The translations under genes were made by a program, and so were the position numbers. DNA of 64,000 nucleotides. Source: Streptomyces graminofaciens (lineage in GTDB: Bacteria; Actinomycetota; Actinomycetes; Streptomycetales; Streptomycetaceae). The stretch is taken from assembly GCF_030294945.1 (NCBI RefSeq), contig NZ_AP018448.1:8714501-8778500 (forward strand), in the 5' to 3' direction. Below are positions 36,546 through 53,621 of the stretch, piece by piece. The notes beneath the pieces are model-generated. The model searched no databases, had not been told where the DNA came from, and saw only the letters and a program-made list of their open reading frames with translations. Numbering within the stretch: position 1 is the stretch's first letter; each line of letters starts with the position of its first letter.

Positions 36546-36833
36546 CCGTCGGCCACCGTCCGTGAGTGCGAGGTGCGTCGCGTGATCTGCGGCATCCCCA
36601 AGTTCAGGCAGATGCAGGGCCCCTGGTAGGAACGATCTTGCGACAGAAAGATCCGACCGAAGGGACTCACGCGCCGACCGGCACCGGAGCCCACTCCGGG
36701 GTTGAGGCCACGATGCGCAACACCCCGCCCTCTGGGCTCGCTTGCTCCACCCGCACTCCGCTCAGGTGCGGCAACACCCCTCGGTGACAAGACCTATGTC
36801 CTCGGCTGACCCGATCCACGAGCGCAGCCTCTG
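36546..36833. other. Non-coding stretch after the CBS gene
   Basis: I see no convincing gene here. Short minus-strand frames cross it but have no recognisable domain. It leads into the orphan right-end block. Confidence 0.4.
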
Positions 36834-37056
36834 CGCGTTGGAAGGTCAATCCGCTGCGGGCGAGTTCGAGACCCTTTTCCGAGCTGGCGCGATCGTCCCC
36901 CAAACCTTTGGTCTGGTCCCGTTGAGCCTCATTGAGGCCGCGTTGGGGCCGCAAGGACAGGAACAGACCGACAAGGGTTGAGGAGCACCGACATACATCA
37001 ACCCACCTGACCTGCAAGAACGGCGTGAATCGGCACTGATTGGTAAGGGCCGCCCA
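36834..37056 (+). repeat. Orphan element right-end block
   Basis: About 220 bp resemble the sequences just left of the att repeats at 49538 and 55335. Shared phrases include AATCCGCTGCG, GCCTCATTGAGGCCG, GGAACAGACCGACAAGG and CTGACCTGCAAGAACG (37007). The tRNA repeat that should follow is missing; an ISL3-type transposase remnant begins instead. I infer the right end of cassette A, whose core site was lost. Confidence 0.65.
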
Positions 37057-37245
37057 GCCCTTCACGCGGGAGGCGAAGACCCCGCAGGCCGGGCAGGCCC
37101 TGGCCGAGGCATCCGCCGTGGCCAGATGGACCCGGCGCCCACCGCACTGAAGCCGCTCGACCCGCATGACGGACACCCCGTCGAGGTCCAGCAGCAACGT
37201 CGTATCGTTGACCAAGCCCGTGGCTCCCAGACGATCATTCTGCCT
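37056..37245 (-). pseudogene. ISL3-family transposase N-terminal remnant
   Basis: Minus-strand translation gives Val-Asn-Asp-Thr-Thr-Leu-Leu-Leu-Asp-Leu-Asp-Gly-Val, then Val-Glu-Arg and Ala-Cys-Pro-Ala-Cys-Gly-Val-Phe-Ala-Ser-Arg-Val-Lys-Gly. This is the N-terminal zinc-binding part of an ISL3-type transposase. It breaks off at the orphan right-end block, leaving roughly the first 60 of about 400 residues. It marks the A/B cassette junction. Confidence 0.55.
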
Positions 37246-37418
37246 AGAGAACAGAAATGATCGCCCAGGACCACGGGCGTCCTGCGTCCAGGGCCACCAA
37301 CAGCCCACCCACCACCATGCAGTGACTGTCAGTCAGCGCACACGAAGGGCACACCGCTCAAGTTCGAAGACCCAGATTGGCGAGAGAACGTGAGACGAGG
37401 CTGAGAAGGCGATGGAGA

Positions 37419-38357
37419 TCAGCTCAGACCGGCGGACGTGAGCCAGGCCTTGGCGACGTCGCTCATGTCGTCGAGCTTGGCGACCTTGCTGTTCAGCTCC
37501 ATGAGTCCCTCGGTGGTCAGCGCCGCGGACACGGCGTTGAGGGTGCTGGTGACGGTGGGGGTGACCTTGTCCTTGTTGATGACGGGCAGGATGTTCTCGG
37601 CCAGGAAGAGGTTCTTGTCGTCCTTGAGGGTGACGAGCTTGTTCTTGGCGATGGCGGGGTCCGTACTGGTCAGGTCACCGACCTGCACCTGGTTGTTGGT
37701 GATGGCGGCGAGGGTCAGCGGGCCTCCGGCGTCCAGCGAGACGAACTTCTTGAAGGACAACCCGTAGACGCTCTTCAGCCCGACCACGCCGTTGACCCGG
37801 GTCTTCCACTCCGGCGGTGCGCCCAGTGCCATCGTGCCGGCCACCGGGGCGAGGTCGGAGATGGTGGTGAGGTCGTGGGCGGTCGCCGTCTTCTGGGTGA
37901 CGGCCAGCACGTCCTTGTCCTCCGCCGTGGACTGCTTGAGCGCGGAGATGCCAGAGGGCAGCGCCTTGGTCAGCGCGGCGGAGACCTCGGCCGGGCTGCT
38001 GGCCTTCGTCTTCGGGTCGAAGTACTGGAGCAGCGCGCCCGTGTACTCCGGGAGGAGATCGATCGAGCCGTCCTTGAGCGCGGGGATGTACGTCTCCCGG
38101 CTGCCGATGTTCAGCCGGGTCTTGACCTTGACGCCCTTGGCCTTCAGCGCCTCCGCGTAGATGGTGGCGAGGAGTTGGCTCTCCGTGAAGTTCGCCGACC
38201 CGACGGTGATGGTGTCGGCGGCGGACGAGGCGCCGGCCGTGGCGCTGGTGCTCATAGGGTCACCGCCGCTGCCGCACGCGGTGAGGACGAGGGCGCCGGT
38301 GGCGGTCAAGGCCGCGAGGCCGAGGAGCTTCTTGCTTCTTGTGGACGCGCTGTTCAT
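37419..38357 (-). CDS. OpuC/ProX-type betaine ABC transporter substrate-binding lipoprotein
   Basis: The 312-aa protein has a lipoprotein signal peptide (Leu-Thr-Ala-Cys, about residues 24-27) and a type II periplasmic binding fold of the OpuAC/OsmF kind, beginning Ile-Thr-Val-Gly-Ser-Ala-Asn-Phe-Thr-Glu-Ser. This family binds glycine betaine, choline, carnitine and, in the EgtU branch, ergothioneine. It starts 10 bp after the permease stop and is the last gene of the iclR-transporter operon. The neighbouring catabolic operon suggests uptake for use as nutrient rather than osmoprotection. Confidence 0.85.
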   Translation of the reverse strand: MNSASTRSKKLLGLAALTATGALVLTACGSGGDPMSTSATAGASSAADTITVGSANFTESQLLATIYAEALKAKGVKVKTRLNIGSRETYIPALKDGSIDLLPEYTGALLQYFDPKTKASSPAEVSAALTKALPSGISALKQSTAEDKDVLAVTQKTATAHDLTTISDLAPVAGTMALGAPPEWKTRVNGVVGLKSVYGLSFKKFVSLDAGGPLTLAAITNNQVQVGDLTSTDPAIAKNKLVTLKDDKNLFLAENILPVINKDKVTPTVTSTLNAVSAALTTEGLMELNSKVAKLDDMSDVAKAWLTSAGLS

Positions 38358-38367
38358 GGGACTCTCT

Positions 38368-39111
38368 TCACTGTGCGGTGGCGGTGGCGGTGGCGGATGC
38401 CGGTACTGCGGGAGGGGAAGTGCGGCGGGAGACCCTGCGGGTGAGGCCGGGCGAGACGAGGAGCCTGGCCAGCCCGAGCAGGAGGAGTTCGACGGCCAGG
38501 GCGAGCGCGGCGACGAGGATCGCTCCGCCCGCCATCTGCGCGTAGTCGCTCTGGGCGAGGCCGTCGATGAGGAACCGGCCGAGACCGCCGAGCGAGACGT
38601 AAGCAGCCACGGTCGCGGTCGCGATGATCTGGAGCGCCGCGGCCCGGATCCCGGACAGGATCAGCGGCAGCGCGCACGGCAGTTGAACGCGCAGCAGGAT
38701 GTCCCGGCCACGCCAGCCCATGCCGCGCGCGGCGTCGACGGCAGCGGCGTCCACCGCGAAGACACCCGCGTAGGTGTTGGTCAGGATCGGCGGCACCGCG
38801 AGCAGGACGAGCACGATCAGGCTCGGAATGGTGAACGCCAGGTCGGAGGCGATGTGCGGGGTGATCAGCAGCACCGCGATCATCAGCACACCCAGCGTCG
38901 GCAGGGCACGCAGCGCGTTGGCGAGGCCGCCGACCAGGAAGGCGCCGCGCCCGGTGTGACCGATCAGGAGGCCGACGGGCACGCCGATGACGAGGGCGAT
39001 GGTCAGCGCCATGCCGGACAGTTCGAGGTGGGCCAGGGTCTGGGCGGGGATGCCGTCGGGACCGCTCCAGTTGACGGGATCGGTGAGCCAGCCGGTGATG
39101 CTCGTGCTCAT
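38368..39111 (-). CDS. OpuC-type ABC transporter permease 1
   Basis: The 247-aa protein has about six membrane spans and the coupling segment Gly-Met-Gly-Trp-Arg-Gly-Arg-Asp-Ile-Leu-Leu-Arg-Val-Gln-Leu-Pro with Ala-Leu-Pro-Leu-Ile-Leu-Ser-Gly-Ile-Arg, typical of OpuCB/OpuCD. The start ATG 39111 overlaps the previous permease stop (ATGA). The open frame continues upstream only as an overlap. The C-terminal 30 residues are Ala/Thr-rich. Confidence 0.87.
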   Translation of the reverse strand: MSTSITGWLTDPVNWSGPDGIPAQTLAHLELSGMALTIALVIGVPVGLLIGHTGRGAFLVGGLANALRALPTLGVLMIAVLLITPHIASDLAFTIPSLIVLVLLAVPPILTNTYAGVFAVDAAAVDAARGMGWRGRDILLRVQLPCALPLILSGIRAAALQIIATATVAAYVSLGGLGRFLIDGLAQSDYAQMAGGAILVAALALAVELLLLGLARLLVSPGLTRRVSRRTSPPAVPASATATATAQ

Positions 39112-39761
39112 CGGGCGGACCTCCTGGGCTGCCAAGGGGTGAGCGAGTGGCCGGCGAGCAGGATCAGCCCGTCCAGCACCAGCGCGATGACCAGGCTCAG
39201 TACGACGCCGGTGACGATCGGGGTGAAGAAGTGCAGCTGGAAGCCCTGCGTGAACAGCGAGCCGAGCTGCGGCACACCGAGCAGCGCGGCCATCGACACG
39301 ATGCTGACGTTGGAGACCGCCGCGACCCGCAGCCCGGCGGCGATGACCGGTACGGCGATGGGCAGTTCGATCCGTATCAGCCGCTGGTGCGACCGGTAGC
39401 CCATGGCGTGGGCGGACTGGATGACGTCGGCGGGTACGGCCGCCAGCCCGTCGGCCACGACCCGCACCAGGAGCGCCGTTGTGTAGACGCTCAGCGCGAT
39501 GACCACGTTGACCGGGTCGAGGATCCGGGTGCCGAGCAACTTCGGCAGCAGGATGAACAGAGCGAGGGAGGGCACCGTGTAGACCAGCCCGGCCAGCGCC
39601 ACCAGCATCGGGTAGAGCCGGCGGCTGCGGTGGGCCAGCCGGCCCAGCGGCAGCGCGACCAGCAGGCCGATGAGCAGCGGCAGTATGGACAGCCAGAGGT
39701 GCCATGCGGTGAGGTCGGCGATCTCTCCGGCGTTGCGGCGGAGCCATTCCGCGGCGGTCAC
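39108..39761 (-). CDS. OpuC-type ABC transporter permease 2
   Basis: The 217-aa permease is a paralogue of the next gene, with five to six membrane spans and the segment Ala-Met-Gly-Tyr-Arg-Ser-His-Gln-Arg-Leu-Ile-Arg-Ile-Glu-Leu-Pro. The GTG start at 39761 overlaps the ATPase stop (GTGA) and its stop overlaps the next start, so all three are translationally coupled. Two different permeases per transporter is normal for the OpuC type. Confidence 0.87.
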   Translation of the reverse strand: MTAAEWLRRNAGEIADLTAWHLWLSILPLLIGLLVALPLGRLAHRSRRLYPMLVALAGLVYTVPSLALFILLPKLLGTRILDPVNVVIALSVYTTALLVRVVADGLAAVPADVIQSAHAMGYRSHQRLIRIELPIAVPVIAAGLRVAAVSNVSIVSMAALLGVPQLGSLFTQGFQLHFFTPIVTGVVLSLVIALVLDGLILLAGHSLTPWQPRRSAR

Positions 39762-40972
39762 AGGTGGCTCCCGGCGGGGGCCTCGGCGGCGGACCCGGCG
39801 GCGGGCTCGACGGACCCGGCGGTGACCCCTGCGGCGGACTCGACGGCGGACCCGGCGATGGCCCCCGCAGGGGCGGTCACCGACGCGGCCTCTTCGATCG
39901 CGCGGGCCACGGCTGTCGGCGACACGGTCCCGGCCAGGTGCCCTTCGGCGTCGACCAGGACACCGCGACCGCTGGGAGAGGACAGTGCCGCGTCCAGCAG
40001 TTCGCGGAGGGTGCCGTCCGTACGGGCCGTGGTGGCGCTGAGGTTGAGGTCCTGCTCGGTGACCCGGTCGCCGTCGAGCCGGTCGAGCGCGGCCCAGCCG
40101 ATCGGCTCACCGCCGGGGGCGGTGACCAGGATCCAGCCGTCCAGCGCCGCCGCCTCGGCCTCGGCGCGCGTCGCGCCGAGCACGACGGCAGGCTCGGCGG
40201 CGGGAATCACGCCGTCTCCCGTACCGGCGAAGCCCAGCGCCCGGTAGCCCCGGTCACGGCCGACGAAGCCCGCGACGAAGGCGTCGGCGGGCCGGGCCAG
40301 CAGCTCGGCCGGGGCCGCGGCCTGTGCGAGCCGCCCGCCCTCGCGGAGCACCGCGACCTGGTCGCCGAGCTTGAGCGCCTCGTCGATGTCATGGGTGACC
40401 AGCACGATCGTCTTGCCGATCTCGCGCTGGAGGCGGAGGAACTCCTCCTGCAACTGGGCGCGTACGACCGGGTCGACGGCGCTGAACGGCTCGTCCATCA
40501 GCAGGTAGGGCGGGTCGGCGGCCAGCGCGCGGGCGACACCGACGCGCTGCTGCTGGCCGCCGGACAACTGCCAGGGGTAGCGGTCGGCGAACTGCGGGCC
40601 GAGGCCGACCCGTTCCAGCAGTTCCAGGGCCCGGGTCCGGGCCTCGCGGCGGCCGAGCCCGAGGAGCCGGGGCAGCGCCATGACGTTGTCGGCGACGTTC
40701 TTGTGCGGGAAGAGGCCGGCGTGCTGGATGACGTAACCGATCTTCCGCCGCAGCTCGGTGGCGTCGGTCCCGGAGACCGGCTGTCCGCCCAGCGTGATGG
40801 TGCCGGAGGTGGGCTCGATCAGGCGGTTGACCATGCGCATGGAGGTGGTCTTGCCGCAGCCGGACGGCCCCACCAGAACGGTGATCTTCCCGGTCGGTGC
40901 CTCCAGGCTGAGCCGGTCGACGGCGACCGTACCGTCCGGATATGCCTTGGTGACGTTGTCGAATCGGATCAT
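39758..40972 (-). CDS. OpuC/ProV-type ABC transporter ATPase
   Basis: The 404-aa ATPase has Walker A Gly-Pro-Ser-Gly-Cys-Gly-Lys-Thr, signature Leu-Ser-Gly-Gly-Gln-Gln-Gln-Arg, Walker B Leu-Leu-Met-Asp-Glu-Pro and switch Thr-His-Asp-Ile-Asp-Glu-Ala. A C-terminal CBS-like region (about 245-370) follows, which in OpuA-type ATPases senses ionic strength. The last 35 residues are Ala/Gly/Ser-rich and atypical. It overlaps the iclR stop by 4 bp, so regulator and transporter are one operon. Confidence 0.88.
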   Translation of the reverse strand: MIRFDNVTKAYPDGTVAVDRLSLEAPTGKITVLVGPSGCGKTTSMRMVNRLIEPTSGTITLGGQPVSGTDATELRRKIGYVIQHAGLFPHKNVADNVMALPRLLGLGRREARTRALELLERVGLGPQFADRYPWQLSGGQQQRVGVARALAADPPYLLMDEPFSAVDPVVRAQLQEEFLRLQREIGKTIVLVTHDIDEALKLGDQVAVLREGGRLAQAAAPAELLARPADAFVAGFVGRDRGYRALGFAGTGDGVIPAAEPAVVLGATRAEAEAAALDGWILVTAPGGEPIGWAALDRLDGDRVTEQDLNLSATTARTDGTLRELLDAALSSPSGRGVLVDAEGHLAGTVSPTAVARAIEEAASVTAPAGAIAGSAVESAAGVTAGSVEPAAGSAAEAPAGSHL

Positions 40973-41679
40973 GACATTCTCTCCGTTACGGGGCCGTATG
41001 TCGGCTGTGCCAGCTGTGCCGGCGGCGGTAGCTGCCCGCCGAGCGAACGCGACAGGTCGTGGGCCTCACCGGCGAGCCGGACCCCGATCCGTACGACCTT
41101 GTCGCCGCGCAGCCGGTAGTCGGGGACCACCACGCTCAGGGCGGCGATCACCCTGGACCCGGTGAGCAGTGGTGCCGCGATCGCGGTGACGTCGTTCTCG
41201 ACGCCGTCCTCCACGACGACGTAACCCCGGGCCGGCGTCTCCCCCGCGAACACCGCCCCGACCGCGCTGGCGCGCCGGGGGATCGTCCGGCCCACCCAAC
41301 TGGTGTGCCGGACCGAGTGAGTGCCCTCGGTGATCGCGATGTACAGGGCGGTGTCCTCGTGCGAGGGGATGCTCAGGTACACCGACTCCCGGGTCACCGC
41401 GACGATCCGTTCCATCGCCTCGCGGCAGTACGGCACCAGGGACTCGTGACTCAGGGCCCGTGCCCCGAACTGCACGATCCGGGTGCCGGGGCGGAACGAT
41501 CCGTCGGCCTCGCGTCGTACGAAACCGCCGTTCTCCAGCGCGCGCAAGAGGCGCAGCGCGGTGCTGGCCGCCAGCCCGGTCTCCCGGGCGCTCTCCGCCA
41601 GGGTGATGGCCCCGTGCTCGCAGACCACGCCGAGCAGAGCCATCGCCCGCTCCGCAGTCCGTGTCGACGTTTCACCCAT
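40969..41679 (-). CDS. IclR-family transcriptional regulator
   Basis: The 236-aa protein has an N-terminal winged helix-turn-helix (Ile-Thr-Leu-Ala-Glu-Ser-Ala-Arg-Glu-Thr-Gly-Leu-Ala-Ala-Ser-Thr-Ala) and a C-terminal effector domain of IclR type with Arg-Gly-Tyr-Val-Val-Val-Glu-Asp-Gly-Val. IclR regulators commonly control catabolic operons and respond to a pathway metabolite. It is first in the transporter operon and divergent from the lyase operon, so it probably controls both. Start ATG 41679 with AGGAGG 7 nt upstream. Confidence 0.88.
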   Translation of the reverse strand: MGETSTRTAERAMALLGVVCEHGAITLAESARETGLAASTALRLLRALENGGFVRREADGSFRPGTRIVQFGARALSHESLVPYCREAMERIVAVTRESVYLSIPSHEDTALYIAITEGTHSVRHTSWVGRTIPRRASAVGAVFAGETPARGYVVVEDGVENDVTAIAAPLLTGSRVIAALSVVVPDYRLRGDKVVRIGVRLAGEAHDLSRSLGGQLPPPAQLAQPTYGPVTERMS

Positions 41680-42022
41680 GCCCCACCTCCTGAATAGGTC
41701 GCAACACTAGGGACGGTTCTTTTCAGATGTATTCAGTACGGTTTCTGTTGAGTGAATCCCGATTGCCACCAGACGGAATACGCGAAACGCATGGTGGCGA
41801 TTTGCGCACGAAGAGTCACCGCCCGGCAGGAGAAATTCTCCCCGAAGGGCTGGATTGCACTGCCACAGATATGCGCGGAGCCCGAAAGAACATCCTGAGC
41901 AGGCCGCTCTGCCACCTGGTGGCAATCGGGTTTCATCGGGCAGAAACCTCGGCGAGTGAGACGTGAAACCGGGCGTCCATAGCGTCCGATTCCATACACA
42001 CGCACCGCTGGGAAGGAATACC
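41680..42022. promoter_or_regulatory. Divergent promoter region with inverted repeats
   Basis: This 343-bp spacer between iclR and the lyase operon is AT-richer than its flanks and has no ORF. A 15-bp sequence (CCCGATTGCCACCAG, 41756-41770) recurs as its exact inverted repeat at 41919-41933, and a related ATGGTGGCGATTTG lies near 41791. These spaced half-sites are candidate IclR operators and could loop the region. I cannot pick -10/-35 boxes with confidence. Confidence 0.5.
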
Positions 42023-43564
42023 GTGAGTGATTCTCGGGAGCCGGTGGCCATCGGATCCACGCCGCTGTCCATTGACGACATCGTGGCGGTGGCGCGGCAC
42101 GGCGCCCCGGTGCTGCTCACCGAGGAAGCCGCCCTGGCGGTCAAGGGCATGCGCGTCCGGATGCTCGCGGGCCTCGACGCGGACGGACCGCCCGTCTACG
42201 GGCTCACCACGGGCGTCGGCGACCTCTACGACGTGTCGGTCGCCCCGGAGCACGTGTCGTCGGCCCAGCTGAAGATGCTCAAGAGCCATGCCTGCGGGGT
42301 GGGCGAGCCCTACCCGCCCGAAGTTATGCGCGCCATGATCCTCCTGATCGTGCGGGCGATGGCCCAGGGCCGCAGCGGAGTGGGCCTCGGTCTGGTCGAG
42401 ACCCTCGTCGCGATGCTCAACCGAGGCGTCACCCCCTGGTCCCCCGGCCGCGGCTCGGTCGGCTATCTGATCGGCACCGCACACATCGGCCTGGTCACGG
42501 CCGGTCTCGGCCGGGCGTACTTCGAGGGCGAGCTGCTGCCCGGCGCCGAGGCGATGCGCCGCGCCGGTCTGCCCGTTCTCGAACTGGGCCCCCGCGAGGG
42601 CCACGCCCTGGTCAGCGGCACGTACGAGGTGACCGCGATGGCGGCGCTCGCCGTCCACGACGCCCGGCTGCTGACCGCCGCCGCCGACATAGCGGCGGCG
42701 ATGAGCCTGGAGGCCCTGCGCGGCAACGACCGCGCCTTCGACCCCCGCGTCCAGCAGGTCCGCCCGCACCCCGGCCAGGCGGCCACCGCCGCGAACCTGC
42801 GCGCCCTGCTCGACGGCAGCGCGATCGTGGCGGCGCACCGTCACCACCGCCTCCAGGACCCGCTGAGCCTGCGCTGCGCGCCCCAGGTCCACGGCAGCGT
42901 GCGCGACGCGCTGGACTACGCCGAGCGCACGGTCACCATCGAGGCCAACTCGATCACCGACAACCCGCTGTTCTCCGTCGCCGGCGACGAGCTCACCGCC
43001 CACACCGGCGGCAACGGCCACGGCGCCCCGGTCGCCATGGCACTGGACGTCCTCGCCATCGCCGTCACCCACCTGCTCAACATCTCCGAGCGGCGCACCG
43101 ACCGCCTCACCAACGCCCACTTCAGCGAACTGCCGGCCTTCCTCGCGGCCCCCGGCGGCGAGGACTCCGGCTTCATGATCCCGCAGTACGTCGCCGCCTC
43201 GCTGGCCGCCGAGGCCCGCGCACTCGCCCAGCCCGCCTCCGTGCACAACATCCCGACCTCGGCGATGCAGGAGGACCACGTCAGCATGGGCGTCCCCGCC
43301 GGCTGGCAGGCCCGGCAGGCGGTCGAGTACGCACAGCAGGGCCTCGGCATCGAGATCCTGGCGGCGGCGCAGGGGCTGGAGCACCACGGCACCCTGCGCC
43401 CGGGAGCCGGGACGGGGGCCGCGTACCGAGCGGTCCGGGAACGGGTGGCCGTCCTGGAGGAGGACCGCGAGATGTACCCCGACCTCGCGGCGGCCCGGGA
43501 GCTGGTCGCGGACGGCAGCCTCGTGGCGGCCGTGGAAGCAGTAGTGGGAGGACTGGCCCGATGA
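42023..43564 (+). CDS. Histidine ammonia-lyase homologue lacking the MIO cofactor triad
   Basis: The 513-aa protein follows the HAL fold end to end: Tyr59 in Val-Tyr-Gly-Leu-Thr-Thr-Gly, His89 in Ser-His-Ala-Cys-Gly-Val-Gly-Glu, Gln278 and Arg284 around Leu-Arg-Cys-x-Pro-Gln-Val, Glu-Ala-Asn-Ser-x-Thr-Asp-Asn-Pro, and Glu417 in Gln-Glu-Asp-His-Val-Ser-Met. Where HAL has Gly-Ser-Val-Gly-Ala-Ser-Gly-Asp it reads Gly-Ser-Val-Gly-Tyr-Leu-Ile-Gly, so the Ala-Ser-Gly that cyclises to MIO is absent. The usual Asn195 is Ser198 and Tyr280 is Leu281. It cannot deaminate histidine by the MIO route. MIO-independent relatives such as ergothionase eliminate trimethylamine from a trimethylated histidine, which fits the betaine transporter nearby. 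GTG 42023 has GGAAGGA upstream. Confidence 0.82.
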   Translation: MSDSREPVAIGSTPLSIDDIVAVARHGAPVLLTEEAALAVKGMRVRMLAGLDADGPPVYGLTTGVGDLYDVSVAPEHVSSAQLKMLKSHACGVGEPYPPEVMRAMILLIVRAMAQGRSGVGLGLVETLVAMLNRGVTPWSPGRGSVGYLIGTAHIGLVTAGLGRAYFEGELLPGAEAMRRAGLPVLELGPREGHALVSGTYEVTAMAALAVHDARLLTAAADIAAAMSLEALRGNDRAFDPRVQQVRPHPGQAATAANLRALLDGSAIVAAHRHHRLQDPLSLRCAPQVHGSVRDALDYAERTVTIEANSITDNPLFSVAGDELTAHTGGNGHGAPVAMALDVLAIAVTHLLNISERRTDRLTNAHFSELPAFLAAPGGEDSGFMIPQYVAASLAAEARALAQPASVHNIPTSAMQEDHVSMGVPAGWQARQAVEYAQQGLGIEILAAAQGLEHHGTLRPGAGTGAAYRAVRERVAVLEEDREMYPDLAAARELVADGSLVAAVEAVVGGLAR

Positions 43565-44784
43565 AGAGCACGGTGACGAGCGAGAACAACGCAGATCAGG
43601 GCCGCCCGCTGTCCGGCGTCAAGGTCCTCGACCTCTCCCGGGTCCTGGCCGGTCCGCTCTGCGGGGCGCTGCTCGGTGACCTCGGAGCCGAGGTCACCAA
43701 AGTCGAGATGCCCGGCGCCGGCGACGACTCCCGGCACTTTGCTCCTCACATCAACGGTGAGAGCTCGTACTTCATGATGCTCAACCGGGGCAAACGCGGC
43801 ATCACCCTCAACCTGAAGTCCGACGAGGGCCGCGACCTGCTGCACCGCCTGGTGCGCGACACGGACATCCTGATCGAGAACTACCGGCCCGGCGTCACCG
43901 ACCGCCTCGGCATCGACTACGACACCCTGTCCGCCGTCAACCCGCGCCTGGTGTACGTCAGCATCTCCGGCTTCGGCCAGACCGGACCACTCGCCCACCG
44001 CCCCGCCTACGACCACATCATCCAGGCCATGGGCGGCATCATGAGCCTCACCGGCTGGCCCGGCACCGGCCCGACCCGCGTCGGCGAGTCCATCGGCGAC
44101 GTCGTCGCCGGGATGTACGGCTCGTACGGTGCCCTGGCCGCGCTCCGGCAACGCGACGTCACCGGGCACGGGCAGCACGTGGATGTCGCCATGCTCGACT
44201 CCGTGCTGTCCCTGCTCGTCGTGTCGCTGTCCCAGTTCACCGCCGACGGCACCGAACCCGAGCGGATCGGCAACCGTCATCCGGTCTCCGCCCCCATGGA
44301 CAGCTTCCCCGCCCGCGACGGACAGGTCGTCCTCGCGGTCGCCAACGACGCCCTCTTCGCCCGTCTGTGCAAGGAGACCGGCATGCCCGAACTCCTCGAC
44401 GACCCCCGCTTCGCCACGGACGCCCAGCGCGCCCGCCACCACGCCGAACTCCGGGTACTGATCGAGAACTGGACGCGTGGCCTGACGGTCGACCAGGCCG
44501 TGAACCGGCTGGAGGCGGCGGGCGTACCGGCAGGTCCCATCTGGAGCCTCAAGGAGGCCCTGGACAGCGACCACGCGCAGCAGCGACAGCTGCTGGGCAC
44601 CGCACGGCACCCGGTGGCCGGCGAGGTCGCCGTGATGCGACAGCCCGTCCGCTTCTCCGGAGCGCAGCCCGCCGCCCCCGCACCCGCGCCGGTCCTCGGG
44701 CAGCACACGGACGAGGTGCTGGCCGCCGCGCTCGGGCTGAGCCCCGACGAGATCGCGGGCCTGCGCGCCCGTGGCGCGATCTGA
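43561..44784 (+). CDS. Class III CoA-transferase (CaiB/BaiF family)
   Basis: The 407-aa protein has the family-III fold with Val-Leu-Asp-Leu-Ser-Arg-Val-Leu-Ala-Gly-Pro near its start, Asn-Tyr-Arg-Pro-Gly-Val, and the catalytic Asp in Ala-Met-Leu-Asp-Ser-Val. These enzymes move CoA between carboxylic acids, for example to carnitine or to aromatic acids. The start overlaps the lyase stop (ATGA), so it is made in step with the lyase and probably activates the product of that pathway, an acrylate such as urocanate being an obvious candidate. The acceptor is unproven. Confidence 0.87.
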   Translation: MKSTVTSENNADQGRPLSGVKVLDLSRVLAGPLCGALLGDLGAEVTKVEMPGAGDDSRHFAPHINGESSYFMMLNRGKRGITLNLKSDEGRDLLHRLVRDTDILIENYRPGVTDRLGIDYDTLSAVNPRLVYVSISGFGQTGPLAHRPAYDHIIQAMGGIMSLTGWPGTGPTRVGESIGDVVAGMYGSYGALAALRQRDVTGHGQHVDVAMLDSVLSLLVVSLSQFTADGTEPERIGNRHPVSAPMDSFPARDGQVVLAVANDALFARLCKETGMPELLDDPRFATDAQRARHHAELRVLIENWTRGLTVDQAVNRLEAAGVPAGPIWSLKEALDSDHAQQRQLLGTARHPVAGEVAVMRQPVRFSGAQPAAPAPAPVLGQHTDEVLAAALGLSPDEIAGLRARGAI

Positions 44785-44804
44785 GCCCTCGAATGGAGAG
44801 AGAC

Positions 44805-45680
44805 ATGCCGGAGAAGAAACTGCCCACCGTGGCGGTGATCGGCGCCGGGACCATGGGCGCGGGCATCGCCCAGGTCTTCGCCCGAGCGGGCTGCCGGGTA
44901 GCCCTGTGGTCCCGCAGCGAAGCCACCCTGGACGCCGCGCGCGCCCTCGTCCCGGACGAGGTCCTCCGCACGCGTTCGCTGTCGGAGGCGCTGGACGGCG
45001 CGGACGTGGTGAGCGAGAACGTCGCCGAAGTGGTCGCCCTCAAGCAGGACGTCCTCGCCTCGATCGAGGCCGCGGTGACACCGGACTGCCTGCTCACCAC
45101 CAACACCTCCAGCGTGCCGATCACCCTGCTGGGCACGGCACTTGACGATCCCGGCCGGTTCCTCGGCATGCACTGGTTCAATCCCGCGCCGGTCATGCCG
45201 CTCGTCGAACTCGTCGCCGGCGAGGCCACCACCGCGACGGCGATGGAGCGCGCCGAGTCGCTGACCCGGCGGCTCGGCAAGCTGCCCGTCGTCGTACGGG
45301 CGGATGTCCCCGGCTTCGTCGTCAACCGTATCCAGTACGCGGTGCTGCGCGAGGTGCTGCACCTGGTGGATTCGGGCGTGACCTCCGTGGCGGACGCCGA
45401 CCTGGCGGTGCGTACGACGCTCGCCCCACGCTGGGCGGCCTGCGGCCCACTGGAGCTGATGGACCTGGCCGGGCTGGACGTGGTCGAGCAGGTGTCGGCG
45501 ATCCTGATGCCCGAGCTGAGCCGCTCGGCCGAGGTGCCGGAGTCCGTGAGGAAACTGGTGGCCGAAGGCGCTCTGGGCGCCAAGTCGGGACGCGGCTTCT
45601 ACGAGTGGCCCGGCGAACGGGTCGACCGGGTCAAGGCCCACCGGGACGCCGTCGTCAGGCAGTTGACCCACGATGGCTGA
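44805..45680 (+). CDS. 3-hydroxyacyl-CoA dehydrogenase
   Basis: The 291-aa NAD-dependent enzyme has the N-terminal Gly-Ala-Gly-Thr-Met-Gly-Ala-Gly-Ile motif, the Asn-Thr-Ser-Ser segment, catalytic His-Trp-Phe-Asn-Pro-Ala-Pro, and the C-terminal dimer domain with Asp-Val-Pro-Gly-Phe-Val-Val-Asn-Arg. It oxidises an L-3-hydroxyacyl-CoA to the 3-oxo form. ATG 44805 has GGAGAGAG just upstream; ATG 44793 is an alternative. Its end overlaps the hydratase start by 8 bp. Confidence 0.88.
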   Translation: MPEKKLPTVAVIGAGTMGAGIAQVFARAGCRVALWSRSEATLDAARALVPDEVLRTRSLSEALDGADVVSENVAEVVALKQDVLASIEAAVTPDCLLTTNTSSVPITLLGTALDDPGRFLGMHWFNPAPVMPLVELVAGEATTATAMERAESLTRRLGKLPVVVRADVPGFVVNRIQYAVLREVLHLVDSGVTSVADADLAVRTTLAPRWAACGPLELMDLAGLDVVEQVSAILMPELSRSAEVPESVRKLVAEGALGAKSGRGFYEWPGERVDRVKAHRDAVVRQLTHDG

Positions 45681-46455
45681 CGGCACCGGCACCATTCTGA
45701 CCCGTACCGAGGATGCGGTCGGCCACGTCCGCCTCCACCGCCCCGAAGCGGCCAACGCGTTGAGCCGCGCCATGATGACGGCTCTGCTGGACGCCGTACG
45801 CGCCTGGGACGCCGACCCCGACGTCCGCTGCGTCGTCATCAGCGGCACGGAACGCCTCTTCGCGGCCGGCGCCGACATCGCCGACCTGGCGGAACTCTCG
45901 GAGTCCGGCCCGGTCGGCACGTACCTCGACGACTTCAGCGACCTGTGGGAGGCCCTGTACGCCACCCGCATCCCTCTCGTCGCGGCGGTCAACGGTCATG
46001 TCCTGGGCGGCGGCTGCGAACTCGCCATGATCTGCGACCTCGTCATCGCCTCGGACACCGCCCGCTTCGGCCAGCCCGAGCTGCGTCTCGGTGCGATCCC
46101 CGGTGCGGGCGGCACCCAACGCCTCGTCCGCGCGGTCGGCAAGGCCCTCGCGATGGACATGATCCTCACCGGCCGCACCATCACCGCCCCCGAAGCCCTC
46201 GCCGCCGGCCTCGTCAGCCGCGTCGTACCCCCCGACCAGCTCGACCGCACAGCCCACGACACGGCCCGCACCATCGCCGCCCACCCCGCGACCGCGGTCC
46301 GACTGGCGAAGGAGGCGGTGCTGACGGCCTTCGAGACGCCCCTCTCCGCCGGCATCCGCACCGAACGCCGCCTGGCCGCCCTCAACGCCTCCACCGACGA
46401 CCACACCCAGGGCCTGCGGGCCTTCCTCGACAAGCGCCGGAGCAACGAACGATGA
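45673..46455 (+). CDS. Enoyl-CoA hydratase/isomerase (crotonase family)
   Basis: The 260-aa crotonase-fold protein has the oxyanion-hole segments Ala-Ala-Gly-Ala-Asp-Ile and Gly-Gly-Gly-Cys-Glu-Leu, with the two catalytic Glu positions present (in Gly-Gly-Gly-Cys-Glu and in Pro-Glu-Leu-Arg-Leu-Gly). It should hydrate an unsaturated CoA ester, giving the substrate of the dehydrogenase encoded just upstream. Its stop overlaps the urocanase start (ATGA). Confidence 0.88.
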
Positions 46456-48119
46456 CTGGAATTTCTGGACCGAGGACCGTGCGCGCTCCCCGCGGGAGCT
46501 CGCTCAGCGCGCAGGGCTGGCAGCAGGAGGCGGCGCTGCGGATGCTGCAGAACAACCTGGATCCGGAAGTCGCCGAGCACCCCGACAAGCTCGTCGTCTA
46601 CGGCGGCACGGGAAAGGCGGCGCGGGACTGGCGGTCGTTCGACGCGATGGTCCGCACCCTGCGGACCCTGAAGCAGGACGAGACGATGCTGGTGCAGTCC
46701 GGCCGTCCGGTGGGGGTGATGCAGACCCACGAGTGGGCCCCGCGGGTCCTGATCGCCAACTCCAACCTGGTCGGCGACTGGGCCAACTGGGAGGAGTTCC
46801 GCCGCCTGGAGGCCCTGGGCCTGACCATGTACGGGCAGATGACCGCCGGTTCCTGGATCTATATCGGTACGCAGGGCATCCTCCAGGGCACCTACGAGAC
46901 CTTCTCCGCCGTCGCCGCGAAGAAGTTCGGCGGCACCCTCGAGGGCACGATCACGCTGACGGCCGGCCTCGGCGGCATGGGCGGCGCGCAGCCCCTCGCC
47001 GTGACCATGAACGACGGCGTCGCGATCTGCATCGACGTCGACCCGCGCGCCATCGAGCGCCGTATCGAGCACCGCTACCTCGACGTGCGCGCGGACTCGC
47101 TGCAGCACGCCCTGCAGCTGGCGGTGGAGGCCCGGGACGCCCGCCGGCCTCTGTCGATCGGCCTGCTCGGCAACGCGGCCGAACTGCTCCCGCAGATGCT
47201 CGCCGAGGGCGCCCCCATCGACATCGTGACCGACCAGACCTCGGCCCACGACCCCCTCGCCTACCTCCCCGTCGGCGTCGACTTCGACGACATGGCCGAC
47301 GCCGCGGCCAAGGACCCGGCGGGCTTCACCACCCGCGCCCGTGAGTCCATGGCCAAGCACGTCGAGGCGATGGTCGGCTTCATGGACGCCGGCGCCGAGG
47401 TCTTCGACTACGGCAACTCGATCCGCGGCGAGGCCCAACTCGCCGGATACGAGCGGGCGTTCGCCTTCCCCGGCTTCGTGCCTGCCTATATCCGGCCGCT
47501 GTTCAGCGAGGGCAAGGGGCCCTTCCGCTGGGCCGCCCTGTCCGGTGAGGCCTCCGACATCCACAAGACCGACAAGGCGATCCTGGAGCTCTTCCCGGAG
47601 AACGAATCCCTGCACCGCTGGATCAAGATGGCCGGCGAGCGCGTCCACTTCCAGGGCCTGCCCGCCCGTATCTGCTGGCTCGGCTACGGCGAGCGGGACA
47701 AGGCCGGCGAGCGGTTCAACGACATGGTCGCCAGTGGTGAGCTGGCCGCCCCGCTCGCCATCGGCCGCGACCACCTCGACTCGGGCTCCGTCGCCTCCCC
47801 GTACCGCGAGACCGAAGCCATGCTCGACGGCTCCGACGCGATCGCCGACTGGCCGCTGCTCAACGCCATGGTCAACGTGGCCTCCGGCGCGTCCTGGGTC
47901 TCCATCCACCACGGCGGCGGCGTCGGCATGGGGCGCTCCATCCACGCCGGCCAGGTCTCCGTCGCCGACGGCACCGCACTCGCCGGAGAGAAGCTGCGCC
48001 GCGTGCTGACCAACGACCCCGGCATGGGCGTCATCCGCCACGTCGACGCCGGCTACGACATCGCGGAGACGGTCGCCGACGAGCGGGGCGTCCGGGTGCC
48101 TATGCGCGAAGGCGTCTGA
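46452..48119 (+). CDS. hutU: Urocanate hydratase
   Basis: The 555-aa protein is full length and matches urocanase throughout: Tyr-Gly-Gly-Thr-Gly-Lys-Ala-Ala-Arg for NAD+, [11 protein letters not shown], the active-site Cys408 in Ala-Arg-Ile-Cys-Trp-Leu-Gly, and Arg-Asp-His-Leu-Asp-Ser-Gly-Ser-Val. It uses tightly bound NAD+ as an electrophile to hydrate urocanate to imidazolonepropionate. Its coupling to a MIO-less lyase instead of a true hutH is unusual. Related proteins hydrate thiourocanate in ergothioneine breakdown, so that substrate is also possible. No hutI or hutG is present. Confidence 0.9.
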
Positions 48120-48168
48120 TCCCCGGAACGCGCATCGCTCTCCCAGAACGCGCCGAGGTCACCGCCGC

Positions 48169-48545
48169 TCACTCCACGAACAGCCCGCGCGCCGCCTCCC
48201 CCGCGTCGAACTGCTCCAGCCGGGCCTGCGCGTCCGGCAGGTCGTCGCAGATCGCCTCCAGCAGCACCCGGCCCAGCAGCATCGGCGCGCGGGCGGTGTC
48301 GAAGGCGAGCCCGGTGCCGACGGCGGCCGGCAGCAGCAGGTCGGACACCTTGGCGACCGCCGCGAACGCGGAGTCGGCGACCCTGACGACGGTCAGTCCG
48401 GCCTCCTTCGCGTACGTCAGCGTGTCCACGACCTCGCGGGGATGCCAGGGCAGCGCGAAGCACAGCAGCGTGGAGGCGCCCGCGCGGACGGCCGCGTCGA
48501 TCTGGCCCTCGGCCTGGGCCCGGTGCACCAGCGCCGACGAGCTCC
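48169..48545 (-). pseudogene. RpiR-family regulator, SIS-domain fragment
   Basis: About 125 residues of a C-terminal sugar-isomerase (SIS) domain remain: Val-His-Arg-Ala-Gln-Ala-Glu-Gly, Leu-Pro-Trp-His-Pro-Arg-Glu-Val-Val-Asp-Thr-Leu, ending Leu-Phe-Val-Glu. The N-terminal helix-turn-helix is gone; at about 48545 the frame is replaced by the first residues of an IS5-type transposase. It lies 50 bp beyond hutU, convergent. It may be a former regulator of the catabolic operon. Confidence 0.7.
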
Positions 48546-48604
48546 CACTGCTCGTCGGTGACATCGCTCGGGTACGGCTTGCGCATGCTCATGCCACAAT
48601 CCAA
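48545..48604 (-). pseudogene. IS5-family transposase N-terminal remnant
   Basis: The residues Met-Arg-Lys-Pro-Tyr-Pro-Ser-Asp-Val-Thr-Asp-Glu-Gln-Trp-Glu-Leu are the conserved start of IS5-group transposases. The rest of the transposase is missing and the RpiR fragment follows in the same frame, so an insertion and deletion joined them. Confidence 0.65.
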
Positions 48605-50031: not shown

Positions 50032-51465
50032 TCAGCCGACGGCCGGCACGGGGGCACGGTCCGTTCCGGCTGCTTCCTTGACGTCGGCGTCCCCGGCCTT
50101 CTCACCCGGTGCGGGATCGGCGTGCGGCGCGGGGGTGTGATCGGCCTCGGGGGCGGAGGTGTACGGAATCTCGCCGCGGAGGACGGCCCTGGCGCGGTCC
50201 TCGTCCAGCTCCCCTTCCCACTTGGCCACCGCCAGGGTCGCGACGCCGTTGCCGACCACGCTGGTCAGGGCACGGGCCTCGGACATGAAGCGGTCGATGC
50301 CGAAGATGAGCGCCAAGGCGGCCACGGGGACGTGCGGAACGGCGCTGAGGGTAGCGGCCAGGGCGATGAAGCCGGAGCCGGTGACCCCGGCGGCGCCCTT
50401 GGACGTGAGCAACATGACGGCGAGCATCGACAGCTGCTGGGTGAGGCTGAGGTCGATGCCGAGGGCCTGGGCGAGGAAGACCGAGCCCATGGTCAGGTAG
50501 ATCGCGGTGCCGTCGAGGTTGAAGGAGTATCCGGCGGGCAGTGTGATGCCCACGACCGGCTTGGAGGCGCCGGCGTGCTCCAGTTTCGCCATCATGCGCG
50601 GCAGCACCGGCTCGCTGGACGAGGTGCCGAGGACGATCAGCAGCTCCTCCTTGATGTAGCGGAGGAAGGGCAGCAGACGCAGGCCGTTGACCCGCATGAC
50701 CGCCCCGAGGATGACCAGGACGAAGAACAGGGCGGTGAGCCAGAAGGAGCCGACCAGCAGGAAGAGGTGACGCAGGGTGTCCAGACCGTAGTTGCCGATG
50801 GTGAAAGCCATGGAGCCGAAGGCGCCGATCGGGGCCAGCCGCATGATCCAGCGGATGAGCGTGAACAGGACCTTGGACAGCTTTTCGACGCCCTGGGTGA
50901 TCCCCGTGCCGGCCTCGCCGGCGGCGTTCAGGCCGAAGCCGAACAGGACCGAGACCAGTAGCACCGGCAGGATCTCGTGGCCGGTCAGCGCGCCGGGCAG
51001 GGTGTCCGGAATGTTGGAGAGGACGAACGCGGAGACGCTCTCGTGGCTCTGAGTGGCCTCCGGCGGCAGGCCCTCGGTGGAGAGGGTGGAGGGATCGACG
51101 TGCAGTCCGCTGCCGGGCTTGACGAGGTTGACGACGACCAGGCCGATCACCATGGCGACGGTGGTCAGGACTTCGAAGTAGATCAGCGCCTTGAGGCTGA
51201 CCCGCCCGACGGCACGCGCGTTGCCCATGGAGGCGATGCCGTGGACGACGGTACAGAAGATGACCGGCGCGATCATCATGCGTACCAGCGCGATGAAACC
51301 GTCGCCCAGGGGCTTCAGGTCGGCTCCGAACGACGGCCACAACCAGCCGACCGCGGCCCCGGCAAGGACACCGATCAGACACTGGACGTACAGCAGGGAC
51401 AGCAGTCGGCGGATGCGGCCGGATGGAGCGGTGACGGTGCCCGGGGCTGCGTCGTTGCGGCTCAT
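50032..51465 (-). CDS. dctA: C4-dicarboxylate transporter DctA (DAACS family)
   Basis: The 477-aa membrane protein has about eight spans plus two re-entrant loops. The family motifs Gly-Thr-Ser-Ser-Ser-Glu-Pro-Val-Leu-Pro, Pro-Ala-Gly-Tyr-Ser-Phe-Asn-Leu-Asp-Gly-Thr and Ser-Lys-Gly-Ala-Ala-Gly-Val-Thr-Gly-Ser-Gly-Phe are intact. It imports succinate, fumarate, malate or related acids with protons or sodium. The C-terminal 40 residues are a charged extension. The start ATG overlaps the PrpF stop (ATGA), so uptake and isomerisation of a dicarboxylate or tricarboxylate are coupled. Confidence 0.9.
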   Translation of the reverse strand: MSRNDAAPGTVTAPSGRIRRLLSLLYVQCLIGVLAGAAVGWLWPSFGADLKPLGDGFIALVRMMIAPVIFCTVVHGIASMGNARAVGRVSLKALIYFEVLTTVAMVIGLVVVNLVKPGSGLHVDPSTLSTEGLPPEATQSHESVSAFVLSNIPDTLPGALTGHEILPVLLVSVLFGFGLNAAGEAGTGITQGVEKLSKVLFTLIRWIMRLAPIGAFGSMAFTIGNYGLDTLRHLFLLVGSFWLTALFFVLVILGAVMRVNGLRLLPFLRYIKEELLIVLGTSSSEPVLPRMMAKLEHAGASKPVVGITLPAGYSFNLDGTAIYLTMGSVFLAQALGIDLSLTQQLSMLAVMLLTSKGAAGVTGSGFIALAATLSAVPHVPVAALALIFGIDRFMSEARALTSVVGNGVATLAVAKWEGELDEDRARAVLRGEIPYTSAPEADHTPAPHADPAPGEKAGDADVKEAAGTDRAPVPAVG

Positions 51466-52580
51466 GCGGGGCGTCCTTCCAGGACGGGAACGAGGAGTTC
51501 GGCTCGGGCGATGCGGCGGGCGGCGCGGTGCAGCAGCACCGTGGGGGAGGCGCTGTCCGCCGCGGGTACGGCCTGGGCGGTGACGACCCCGGCTGGGGTG
51601 CCCAGGCGCAGCGTGCCGTCGGCGGTCTGCCCGGCGACGCGATGGGCGAGGGTGCCGGGAGTCGCGGCTGCGGTGGCCAGTGCGACGGCCGAGGTGAGAC
51701 CGATCGCCGGGTGGGGTGCGTGCATGGAGACCATGCGGACGGCCAGGTCGTACTCGTCCGGTCCGACCGGGGTGCCGTCGGTGGTGCGGTAGGCAGCGGG
51801 GCGGGCGAGGACGCCGACCTTCGGCACGGCGTGGCTGACGGGATCATTCTCCTTGGCCAGGCCCATGGCAAGGGCGGCCTGACGGCGCAGCACGGTGAGC
51901 GCCGGCACCACCGCGGCGAACTCGGCCAGGGACTCGGTGCCTTGAAGACCGAAGGCCTTCGCCTCGAACAGCGCGGCTGGGGCACCGGCATCGACCAGGG
52001 ACGCCTCGATGGGACCGGCGGGCCCCGAGAGGGTGTCCAGGGAACGGCCGGTCGGCAGGGCACGACCCGTGGTCGAACCCGCCGGGTCCAGGAAGCCGAG
52101 CAGGACCGGCACACCGAGCGCGGCGGTGCCCGGCACCACCGCCGTGCCCTCTTCGGGGGCCGTACGCCCCGGAGTCGGGATGGTGCCGGTGAGGCGGGCC
52201 CCGGTGTTGACGTTGAGCATCCGCACCGTGGTGGAGTCCGACGTGATCGGCACCAGGCCGTTGTGGACGGCGTACAGAGCGACGGCGGTGGCGCAGTTGC
52301 CGCAATTGCTGGCCCATTCCACGTGCTCGTCACCGATACCGACCTGCGCGAACGCGTACTCGACGTCGATGCCCGGCTCGGCCGACCTCCGGACGATCGC
52401 GGCCTTGGAGGTCGTGGAGGAGGCACCGCCGACACCGTCGATCTGGCGGGGGTCGGCGGCGTTGTAGGCGGCGAGCAACAGGGTGTCGGCGTCCACGCCG
52501 GTCGCCACCACGTCGTGGTGGTCGAAGATCCAGCACTTGCTGGTTCCTCCGCGGATCATCTCGCCCTGCAGACGCAACAC
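51462..52580 (-). CDS. PrpF-family isomerase (methylaconitate/oxalomesaconate isomerase type)
   Basis: The 372-aa protein has the PrpF diaminopimelate-epimerase-like double fold. The signature Met-Ile-Arg-Gly-Gly-Thr-Ser-Lys lies near the start, and the Ser-Asn-Cys-Gly-Asn segment in mid-chain. Members shift double bonds in methylaconitate, 4-oxalomesaconate (GalD) or aconitate. Without prpB/prpC or gallate genes nearby, a role with the co-transcribed DctA in using an external tricarboxylate or aromatic breakdown product is likely, but the substrate is open. GTG 52580 follows GAGGAG by 6 nt; the frame is open 34 codons further without homology. Confidence 0.82.
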   Translation of the reverse strand: MLRLQGEMIRGGTSKCWIFDHHDVVATGVDADTLLLAAYNAADPRQIDGVGGASSTTSKAAIVRRSAEPGIDVEYAFAQVGIGDEHVEWASNCGNCATAVALYAVHNGLVPITSDSTTVRMLNVNTGARLTGTIPTPGRTAPEEGTAVVPGTAALGVPVLLGFLDPAGSTTGRALPTGRSLDTLSGPAGPIEASLVDAGAPAALFEAKAFGLQGTESLAEFAAVVPALTVLRRQAALAMGLAKENDPVSHAVPKVGVLARPAAYRTTDGTPVGPDEYDLAVRMVSMHAPHPAIGLTSAVALATAAATPGTLAHRVAGQTADGTLRLGTPAGVVTAQAVPAADSASPTVLLHRAARRIARAELLVPVLEGRPA

Positions 52581-52680
52581 AACGGTCTCCTCGTAGAAAC
52601 CCCGACGGCACTTCCGTGCGGGATGCGATCCACAGTGGGCGCGAAGAGCATGAAGTACAATCTCGGAAATCTGCATGGGC

Positions 52681-52697
52681 ATTAAGCTGAAGTTAAC
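52681..52697. promoter_or_regulatory. Candidate LysR-regulator site
   Basis: An interrupted TTAA-N7-TTAA dyad (ATTAAGCTGAAGTTAAC) lies 16 bp upstream of the lysR start in the 132-bp divergent spacer. It is a plausible autoregulatory T-N11-A type operator; motif evidence only. Confidence 0.35.
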
Positions 52698-52712
52698 GCT
52701 GGAGGTGGCGCT

Positions 52713-53621
52713 GTGCTCGACGTCCGGCGCATCCTGCTCTTCACCGAGGTCGCCCGCCGGGGCTCGGTCACCGCTACCGCACGGGCCCTCAACTACACGC
52801 CGTCAGCGGTGTCCCAGCAGGTCAGTCGCCTGGAAGTAGAAGCAGGGCAGCCCCTTCTGGAGCGCCATGCGCGGGGCGTCACACTCACCGACGCGGGACG
52901 CGCGCTGGCCGAGCGAGGGGAGCGGATCGAACGCGAACTGACGGCCGCGGAGAACGAGCTGGCCGACTTCGCGGGACTGCGCGCGGGCACCCTCCGGGTC
53001 GGAACCTTCCCCACCGTCGGCGCCTCCCTCCTCCCGCGGGCCGTGATCGCCTTCCGGGAAGCGCATCCGGACGTACGGCTGACGGTGCGCAGCGCCCGCA
53101 TCGCGGGCCTGTGGGCGATGCTGGAGAACCGGGAGATCGAGATGTCCCTGATGTGGGACTACGACTGGAACCGCATCGACCGCGAGGACATTGCCGTCAC
53201 CGCACTGGTCGACGACCCCCCGGCCCTCCTCGTCGGCCAGGGCCACCCCCTGGCCGACCGCCCTTCGGCCGCCCTCGCGGACTTCGCGAACGATCCCTGG
53301 ATCACCCGCGCCGACCACCACCCGGTGGCCGAGGCCCTCGCCCGCAGCTGCCACGCAGCCGGCTTCGAGCCGCAGATCGCCTACGAGGCCCACGACTACC
53401 AGGAGGCCCAGGCCATGGTCGCCGCCGGCATCGGCGTCGCCCTCGCCCCCACCCTTGCCCTGGAAGGCGTCCGAGCCGGTGTCAGCATCCTGCCGCTGCA
53501 ACCCGCCGGCCCGGTGCGCCGCATCCTCCTCGTCCGCATGAGCGACCACGCCCTCACCCCCGCCGCCCAGGCCTTCGCGGCCTTTCTCCGCAACAGCGCC
53601 GCCGCCGCTACGGCGTCATGA
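52713..53621 (+). CDS. LysR-family transcriptional regulator
   Basis: The 302-aa protein has an N-terminal winged helix-turn-helix (Gly-Ser-Val-Thr-Ala-Thr-Ala-Arg-Ala-Leu-Asn-Tyr-Thr-Pro-Ser-Ala-Val-Ser-Gln-Gln) and a C-terminal substrate-binding domain. GTG 52713 is preceded by GGAGG 7 nt upstream. It is divergent from prpF-like-dctA and by the usual LysR logic controls that operon. Confidence 0.88.
   Translation: MLDVRRILLFTEVARRGSVTATARALNYTPSAVSQQVSRLEVEAGQPLLERHARGVTLTDAGRALAERGERIERELTAAENELADFAGLRAGTLRVGTFPTVGASLLPRAVIAFREAHPDVRLTVRSARIAGLWAMLENREIEMSLMWDYDWNRIDREDIAVTALVDDPPALLVGQGHPLADRPSAALADFANDPWITRADHHPVAEALARSCHAAGFEPQIAYEAHDYQEAQAMVAAGIGVALAPTLALEGVRAGVSILPLQPAGPVRRILLVRMSDHALTPAAQAFAAFLRNSAAAATAS

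Follow-up and report, generated by a model that had tools for sequence, protein, structure and literature searches.

A Candidate Hercynine Utilization Cassette with an Atypical Lyase in Streptomyces graminofaciens

Overview of the Cassette

A cassette of ten genes was investigated in a window of 64,000 nucleotides (the whole stretch of DNA that was analyzed, positions 8,714,501–8,778,500 in the 11.6 Mb single-contig genome of Streptomyces graminofaciens). The cassette is likely a module for the utilization of hercynine (N-alpha,N-alpha,N-alpha-trimethyl-L-histidine), which appears to be the best substrate for its lyase, a member of the histidine ammonia-lyase (HAL) family predicted to lack the 4-methylideneimidazole-5-one (MIO) group. 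Fungi and actinobacteria make ergothioneine from hercynine. The original prediction had proposed that either hercynine or ergothioneine is imported, loses trimethylamine, and yields a urocanate or thiourocanate for hydration. The hercynine half of this pathway was supported by an MIO-less lyase with a retained imidazole site, a genuine urocanase, and Hut genes and HutC-like regulators that recur near sister lyases; the ergothioneine half was contradicted.

In the proposed route, an ATP-binding cassette (ABC) importer would bring hercynine into the cell, and the lyase would eliminate trimethylamine without MIO to form trans-urocanate, as its residues and gene context suggest. A quaternary ammonium, itself a good leaving group, may make MIO unnecessary, and hercynine is favored since an imidazole-type, MIO-less lyase that gives urocanate would require a histidine derivative carrying such a group. 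The cassette urocanase, whose family membership is clear, would then hydrate urocanate to imidazolone propionate. HutI, HutF, and HutG are absent from the cassette itself; chromosomal hutI (353.9 bits) and hutF (563.4 bits), which adjoin the genome's other hutU, could serve, and their products would carry the intermediate on towards glutamate. Expression of the cassette is probably controlled by its IclR-family regulator.

The Lyase and Its Active Site

The lyase was assigned to PF00221 by a Pfam scan. It has GSVGYLIGTAH at the site where HALs carry GSVGASGDLAPLAH, so the MIO group should be unable to form, and the earlier label of an MIO-less enzyme was right. The GSVGYL stretch was found in 116 of the 120 nearest proteins among the matches listed (a different stretch was shown for the other four), and the nearest named match, at 99%, came from Streptomyces griseoruber DSM 40281.

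Active-site residues were mapped using what we take to be the numbering of P. putida HAL (Y280, F329, and D145 appear in PDB titles too). The 30 aligned window-type and syntenic lyases included 26 syntenic rows, fewer than the 41 sister loci described below, as duplicates and lyase pieces of <440 amino acids were removed. In all 30, the MIO alanine was replaced by Tyr168, Tyr280 by Leu, and Phe329 by Gly, while Asn195 was replaced by Ser in 27 and by Gly in 3. The window lyase itself has L301, S218, and G352 at the positions of HAL Tyr280, Asn195, and Phe329. Tyr53, His83, Arg283, and Glu414 were retained in every row and Gln277 in 29 of 30; these are presumably the imidazole and carboxylate contacts of HAL. 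Tyr280, Phe329, and Asn195 were present in all 19 canonical HAL rows, a set picked by its [AC]SGD motif that holds one gene twice (L112 and L131) and omits four rows from Rhizobium that have GAADLAP as their motif. Firmicutes-type MIO-less rows (n = 41) carried Tyr168 and Leu280 throughout. Position 329 was F in 29 of these, A in 11, and P in 1, and Asn195 was kept in 13, so that only the changes to Tyr168 and Leu280 are common to them.

An AlphaFold model of the lyase had a predicted local distance difference test (pLDDT) score of 84.5 and gave Z scores of 44.4 with tyrosine aminomutase (the highest), 42.6 with HAL 1b8f, and 41.0 with ergothionase 6s7j. Such similar scores indicate the superfamily fold and do not choose among the three. 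A further group of GSxGYL lyases, with Leu280, Asn195, and Ala329, was observed at L024 (18740–20260), L026 (19727–21265), and L151 (1459–2961); it falls outside the window clade and apart from lyases of the ergothionase type.

Urocanase and Hut Neighborhoods

The window urocanase passed the HutU equivalog model TIGR01228 at 900.9 bits (cut-off 375) and fell under the cut-offs for thiourocanate hydratase (NF058530, 650.5 bits against 930) and S-methylthiourocanate hydratase (NF058531, 686.5 bits against 880). It shares 93% identity with the other HutU of the genome and nests among Streptomyces HutUs in a tree. The product of the lyase is probably urocanate, since its partner is a genuine HutU and Hut genes or HutC-like regulators recur near sister lyases.

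These sister loci, 41 in number, were retrieved by the lyase alone, and HutU, HutI, HutF, HutG, and HutC-like genes were called in them by tblastn bit-score thresholds of our own setting, with no random-locus control. The importer was present in 38 of the 41 loci. A hut gene or HutC-like regulator stood within ~10 kb of 35, and neither was found in the other six. HutU-family proteins were called in 24 loci (non-canonical in L018 and L056), HutI in 21, HutF in 20, HutG in 17, and HutC-like regulators in 26. Enteric clusters add HutI, HutF, and HutG, and the one of each that was scanned scored over its cut-off. In many proteobacterial sister clusters, a HutC-like regulator takes the place of IclR. 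Ten regulators next to clusters of Rhizobium, Agrobacterium, Rouxiella, Rahnella, Pseudomonas, and Burkholderia were scanned: nine passed the TIGR02018 HutC cut-off of 220, that of the Burkholderia cluster fell just under it at 217.2, and none of the ten reached the stricter NF011575. The available part of PMC12977541 gives histidine or urocanate as the inducer of HutC.

A Klebsiella pneumoniae plasmid (L089; NZ_CP092405.1) carries hutG-hutI-cytosine permease-hutU, importer-lyase, and hutD-hutC-hutF. This amounts to a complete Hut route in which HutH is replaced by the MIO-less lyase, annotated as an aromatic amino acid ammonia-lyase. Relatives of the lyase at E 1e-80 or better were found in 206 plasmid records, with Klebsiella accounting for 162; annotation was examined for three of the 206, one of these from Klebsiella. 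PMC12188710, in the part available, concerns chromosomal hutUH(T) of K. pneumoniae, which is another locus than the plasmid cluster. Among another 39 loci, mostly from Firmicutes, 15 contained a HutU with 62% identity or more, and three of these HutUs, when scanned, scored 982.7–1000.5 bits with TIGR01228. The likeness to the Hut pathway lies in the HutU of the cassette and in the HutI, HutF, HutG, and HutC-like regulators of many sister clusters. The difference is that, within the cluster, HutH and a histidine permease give way to an MIO-less lyase and an ABC importer of the betaine type.

The HutU tree placed the cluster copies in at least three host-lineage clades, with Microbacteriaceae/Bifidobacteriaceae and enteric copies grouping with their own host lineages, whereas the partner lyases formed one cross-phylum clade in the lyase trees. 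Gene order differs as well: the urocanase gene is last in the window, upstream on the opposite strand in enterics, and between the binding protein and lyase genes in Agreia, Microbacterium, Rathayibacter, and a Bifidobacteriaceae bacterium. Urocanase has therefore been paired with this lyase on more than one occasion.

The substrate might instead be a different betaine of the histidine type or an analogue substituted at C2 or N, such as S-methylergothioneine, ergothioneine sulfonate, or ring-methylated hercynine, with the urocanase accepting a substituted urocanate. Loci L018 and L056 combine a lyase of the same clade and the importer with a nearby S-methylthiourocanate-hydratase-like protein instead of HutU (NF058531 was its best model, yet under the cut-off of 880, at 832.6 bits for a partial protein and 752.1 bits), a pairing hinting that the substrate differs within the lyase clade. 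An ergothioneine sulfonate pathway of Agrobacterium, cited in the available part of PMC13405746, points the same way. Nevertheless, we regard such an analogue as a rather unlikely substrate for the window lyase, as canonical HutUs (886.7–1023.3 bits in those scanned) occur in the window and in the Microbacteriaceae, Bifidobacteriaceae, and enteric clusters, the last with their additional Hut genes.

Comparison with Ergothionase

Ergothioneine degradation, in which the lyase would be an ergothionase and the urocanase would hydrate thiourocanate, was judged quite improbable. The close match of the urocanase to the genome's own HutU, far under the thiourocanate-hydratase cut-off, contradicts this half of the original prediction, as does the finding that thiourocanate hydratases and their lyases belong to other families. 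As a control, thiourocanate hydratase (NF058530) was sought in 297 genomes of a Rhizobium's order. It was over the cut-off in 17, and nine of these 17 regions were fetched. Another PF00221-type lyase was located near the hydratase in seven of the nine, and no PF00221-type lyase was found within the 20 kb of the other two. The lyases beside thiourocanate hydratase were 27.6–31.5% identical to the window lyase, and one that was queried had ergothionase 6s7j as its best PDB match, at 168.6 bits (the best HAL reached 134.7). When the window lyase and three relatives were the queries, 6s7j ranked under HALs.

Tree placement, which the original prediction had proposed as a check, was carried out with 103 lyase rows (duplicates and pieces of <440 amino acids left out) and with 60 rows (a subset of the 103 plus seven new rows). 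In the 60-row tree, which did not include 6s7j, seven ergothionase-type lyases formed one clade (100/100) and the window and syntenic lyases another (100/99). All seven ergothionase-type lyases had Leu280, Ser195, and Ser329; 6s7j has Leu at 280 and keeps Phe at 329. The Treponema denticola ergothionase (6s7j) is 30% identical to the window lyase, with which it has in common an MIO-less PF00221 fold and Leu for Tyr280. The two probably share their chemistry, the elimination of trimethylamine without MIO, from different lineages, and the window lyase does not appear to be an ergothionase by descent. The ergothionase assignment was rejected on account of the separate clade and the hydratase partner, which is thiourocanate hydratase in ergothionase-type systems and a true urocanase in the window. 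Ergothioneine is thus an unlikely substrate. Rhizobium genome G013 carries both lyase types, and the available part of PMC13405746 describes a further ergothionase, from Burkholderia sp. HME13.

Importer and Coenzyme A Module

The binding protein of the importer matched PF04069 (OpuAC) at 169.7 bits, and its model (pLDDT 89.3) most resembled EgtUC and engineered sensors for cytisine, acetylcholine, and nicotine. In EgtUC, according to the available part of PMC9732360, Phe293, Gly244, and Lys242 are ergothioneine determinants and Y341, Y419, and Y443 form the cage. We mapped the window protein onto EgtUC by profile alignment at ~27% identity. It shares the OpuAC fold with the EgtU, OpuC, and ProX importers and keeps EgtUC E375 and R379 as E183 and R187, which were invariant in 25 of 25 aligned sequences. 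In contrast, F293 corresponds to Y105, G244 to F57, K242 to A55, N339 to D147, and T296 to A108. EgtU-type specificity is not expected of this importer because the ergothioneine determinants are replaced, which is a further argument against ergothioneine as the substrate.

The cassette also encodes a coenzyme A (CoA) trio of CoA-transferase, dehydrogenase, and hydratase. All three were clear members of their Pfam families, and none passed an NCBIfam cut-off among the matches listed. The original prediction assigned them no role. Jointly, they would turn an acrylate into a 3-oxoacyl-CoA, and a tentative guess is that they handle an arylacrylate, e.g., urocanate, one of its isomers, or an analogue, in the manner of beta-oxidation. 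The trio was present in Rhizobium loci without nearby hut genes and in Kosakonia sacchari and Cedecea neteri with a full set, and it was missing from the relatives Klebsiella michiganensis and Kosakonia quasisacchari. Judged by this presence and absence among close relatives, independent of hut genes, the trio is an accessory module. In the Microbacterium cluster L022, the trio is followed by a protein (14219–15430) that passes the NF006770 cut-off for allantoate amidohydrolase.

Two features weigh against hercynine utilization. The aromatic cage of the binding protein is mostly replaced (Y341 by D149, Y419 by T230, and Y443 by E254); the OpuC-type fold expected at the outset was borne out, and the trimethylammonium ligand deduced from it is only putative. 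In addition, the CoA trio, which was complete with or without HutU in 25 of the 41 loci (counting L017 despite identities of 44% for its CoA-transferase and 36% for its hydratase, both of which lie farther downstream), is unexplained by the hercynine route. The replaced cage would suit a non-quaternary histidine derivative that enters through the importer and loses another leaving group, and the nicotine and cytisine sensors among the nearest solved binding proteins are consistent with such a ligand. On the other side stand the retained E183 and R187, the acetylcholine sensors and EgtUC among the near structures, and Leu280 of the lyase, as in ergothionase 6s7j and its relatives. We consider a non-quaternary substrate quite improbable too and rank it after ergothioneine.

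Histidine Ammonia-Lyase Models and Genome Copies

The lyase scored 514.9 bits with the hutH model TIGR01225, under its cut-off of 539.15, and 531.8 bits with the broader NF006871, over its cut-off of 524. Its best PDB sequence matches were HALs, its relatives carry annotations as histidine or aromatic amino acid ammonia-lyases, and no hercynine-lyase model was among its eight NCBIfam matches. Gene copies were also investigated: 20 loci were considered, 19 genomes were searched (L024 was left out), and 15 were compared for PF00221 and urocanase copies. The cluster's own genes were the sole PF00221 and sole urocanase matches in three of the 15, all drafts (Rathayibacter tanaceti, Rosenbergiella epipactidis, and Pectobacterium betavasculorum), and the other 12 had a separate lyase copy with the [AC]SGD motif. 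Despite the HAL-like matches, a decayed or unusual HAL in a spare histidine-degradation operon is very improbable given these separate copies, the betaine kind of importer, and the replacement of the MIO triad, Tyr280, Asn195, and Phe329 in all 30 rows, on which grounds a HutH assignment was also rejected.

Gene Layout

All ten cassette genes were read from the sequence as intact reading frames (Table 1). The sequence junctions confirmed the arrangement first described, with five same-direction genes that overlap or lie 20 bp apart and diverge from an IclR–ABC importer operon. The lyase and CoA-transferase genes overlap by 4 nucleotides (43561–43564), the dehydrogenase and hydratase genes by 8 (45673–45680), and the hydratase and urocanase genes by 4 (46452–46455); a 20-nucleotide gap, with GGAGAG ahead of ATG 44805, separates the CoA-transferase from the dehydrogenase. 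Because of these translational overlaps and the single gap, the five rightward genes would make a convincing operon. The divergent importer operon, from the IclR gene (40969–41679) to the binding-protein gene (37419), has 4-nucleotide overlaps but a 10-nucleotide gap before the binding-protein gene. An operator palindrome was sought in the divergent control region, where one weak 10-nucleotide inverted repeat was found.

The lyase start had been placed at 41963 and was corrected. GTG 42023 is the more likely start, since a putative ribosome site (GGGAAGGA, 42010–42017) lies ahead of it and the resulting 513 amino acids equal the length of a 98% identical database protein (P0001). Starting at GTG 41963 adds 20 residues, which were modelled at a pLDDT of 29–35.

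Table 1. Positions of the cassette genes and adjoining features in the window.
Feature	Position	Strand	Remarks
Substrate-binding protein of ABC importer	37419..38357	-	OpuAC domain, PF04069
ABC importer permease 1	38368..39111	-	Start set at ATG 39111; scanned as 38368-39150
ABC importer permease 2	39108..39761	-	
ABC importer ATPase	39758..40972	-	ProV-like; TIGR01186 290.0, below cut-off 326.6
IclR-family regulator	40969..41679	-	
Divergent intergenic control region	41680..42022	no strand	One weak inverted repeat, 41762-41771 / 41792-41801
MIO-less HAL-family lyase, proposed hercynine trimethylamine-lyase	42023..43564	+	Alternative start 41963
Family III (CaiB/BaiF-type) CoA-transferase	43561..44784	+	
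3-Hydroxyacyl-CoA dehydrogenase family protein	44805..45680	+	Scanned from 44811
Enoyl-CoA hydratase family protein	45673..46455	+	
Urocanase (HutU), second copy in genome	46452..48119	+	
Open reading frame resembling SIS part of RpiR-type regulator	48169..48564	-	Reading by eye; no Pfam match

Possible Transfer of the Block and Flanking Regions

At E 1e-120, the lyase was present in three of 392 genomes of the genus, the window's included. Positions 37398–48502 are 98.6% identical to S. griseoruber (L007) and positions 37047–48499 are 98.8% identical to the third genome (L153), with unmatched flanks in both comparisons, whereas the other hutU of the window genome and that of S. griseoruber share only 92.6% DNA identity. 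These values fit a recent transfer of the block. Its right edge (48499–48502) crosses the open reading frame resembling part of an RpiR-type regulator. Pfam and PHROGs scans of flanking open reading frames found no mobile-element family at 36667–37308 or 48053–48604, and any insertion-sequence reading of these flanks is by eye. The mobile cassette of the original prediction is a reasonable reading, and no intact element that could move the block was found.

To the left of the cassette lie two tRNA-Asn genes and one tRNA-Met gene (28119–28524). The end of the tRNA-Met gene is overlapped by a 131-bp stretch whose S. griseoruber match lies to the left of the cassette there, and for stretches near 49.5 and 55.3 kb the S. 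griseoruber matches lie on both its sides. To the right, an SDF-type dicarboxylate symporter, a PrpF-family protein, and a divergent LysR regulator (50032–53621) form a separate small unit.

Implications for Hercynine Metabolism

On balance, we think that several bacterial phyla carry a dedicated hercynine catabolism, in which an MIO-less trimethylamine-lyase distinct from ergothionase feeds the Hut pathway from transferable cassettes. Related clusters in several phyla are annotated as ammonia-lyase genes. The open-access literature, seen mostly as titles and the starts of abstracts and with subscription journals mostly absent, yielded no hercynine lyase and no bacterial route consuming hercynine. 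The proposed pathway joins ergothionase-like chemistry to the Hut pathway. The host itself probably makes hercynine for ergothioneine, since its genome encodes EgtD (375.9 bits, cut-off 290.9) and EgtC (311.5 bits, cut-off 218.65) over their cut-offs, which makes the control of the cassette of interest: if the proposed function is true, import and breakdown must stay apart from synthesis in hercynine-making Streptomyces. The 'histidine' clusters on Klebsiella and Rhizobium plasmids would likewise be hercynine clusters and an unrecognized source of trimethylamine. A hercynine lyase would give a function to a clade whose current annotation is histidine or aromatic amino acid ammonia-lyase, and it would point to one more possible origin of trimethylamine, from betaines that mushrooms or actinobacteria supply. 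Together with ergothionase, it would make a pair of enzymes from separate clades, both MIO-less and both with Leu for Tyr280.

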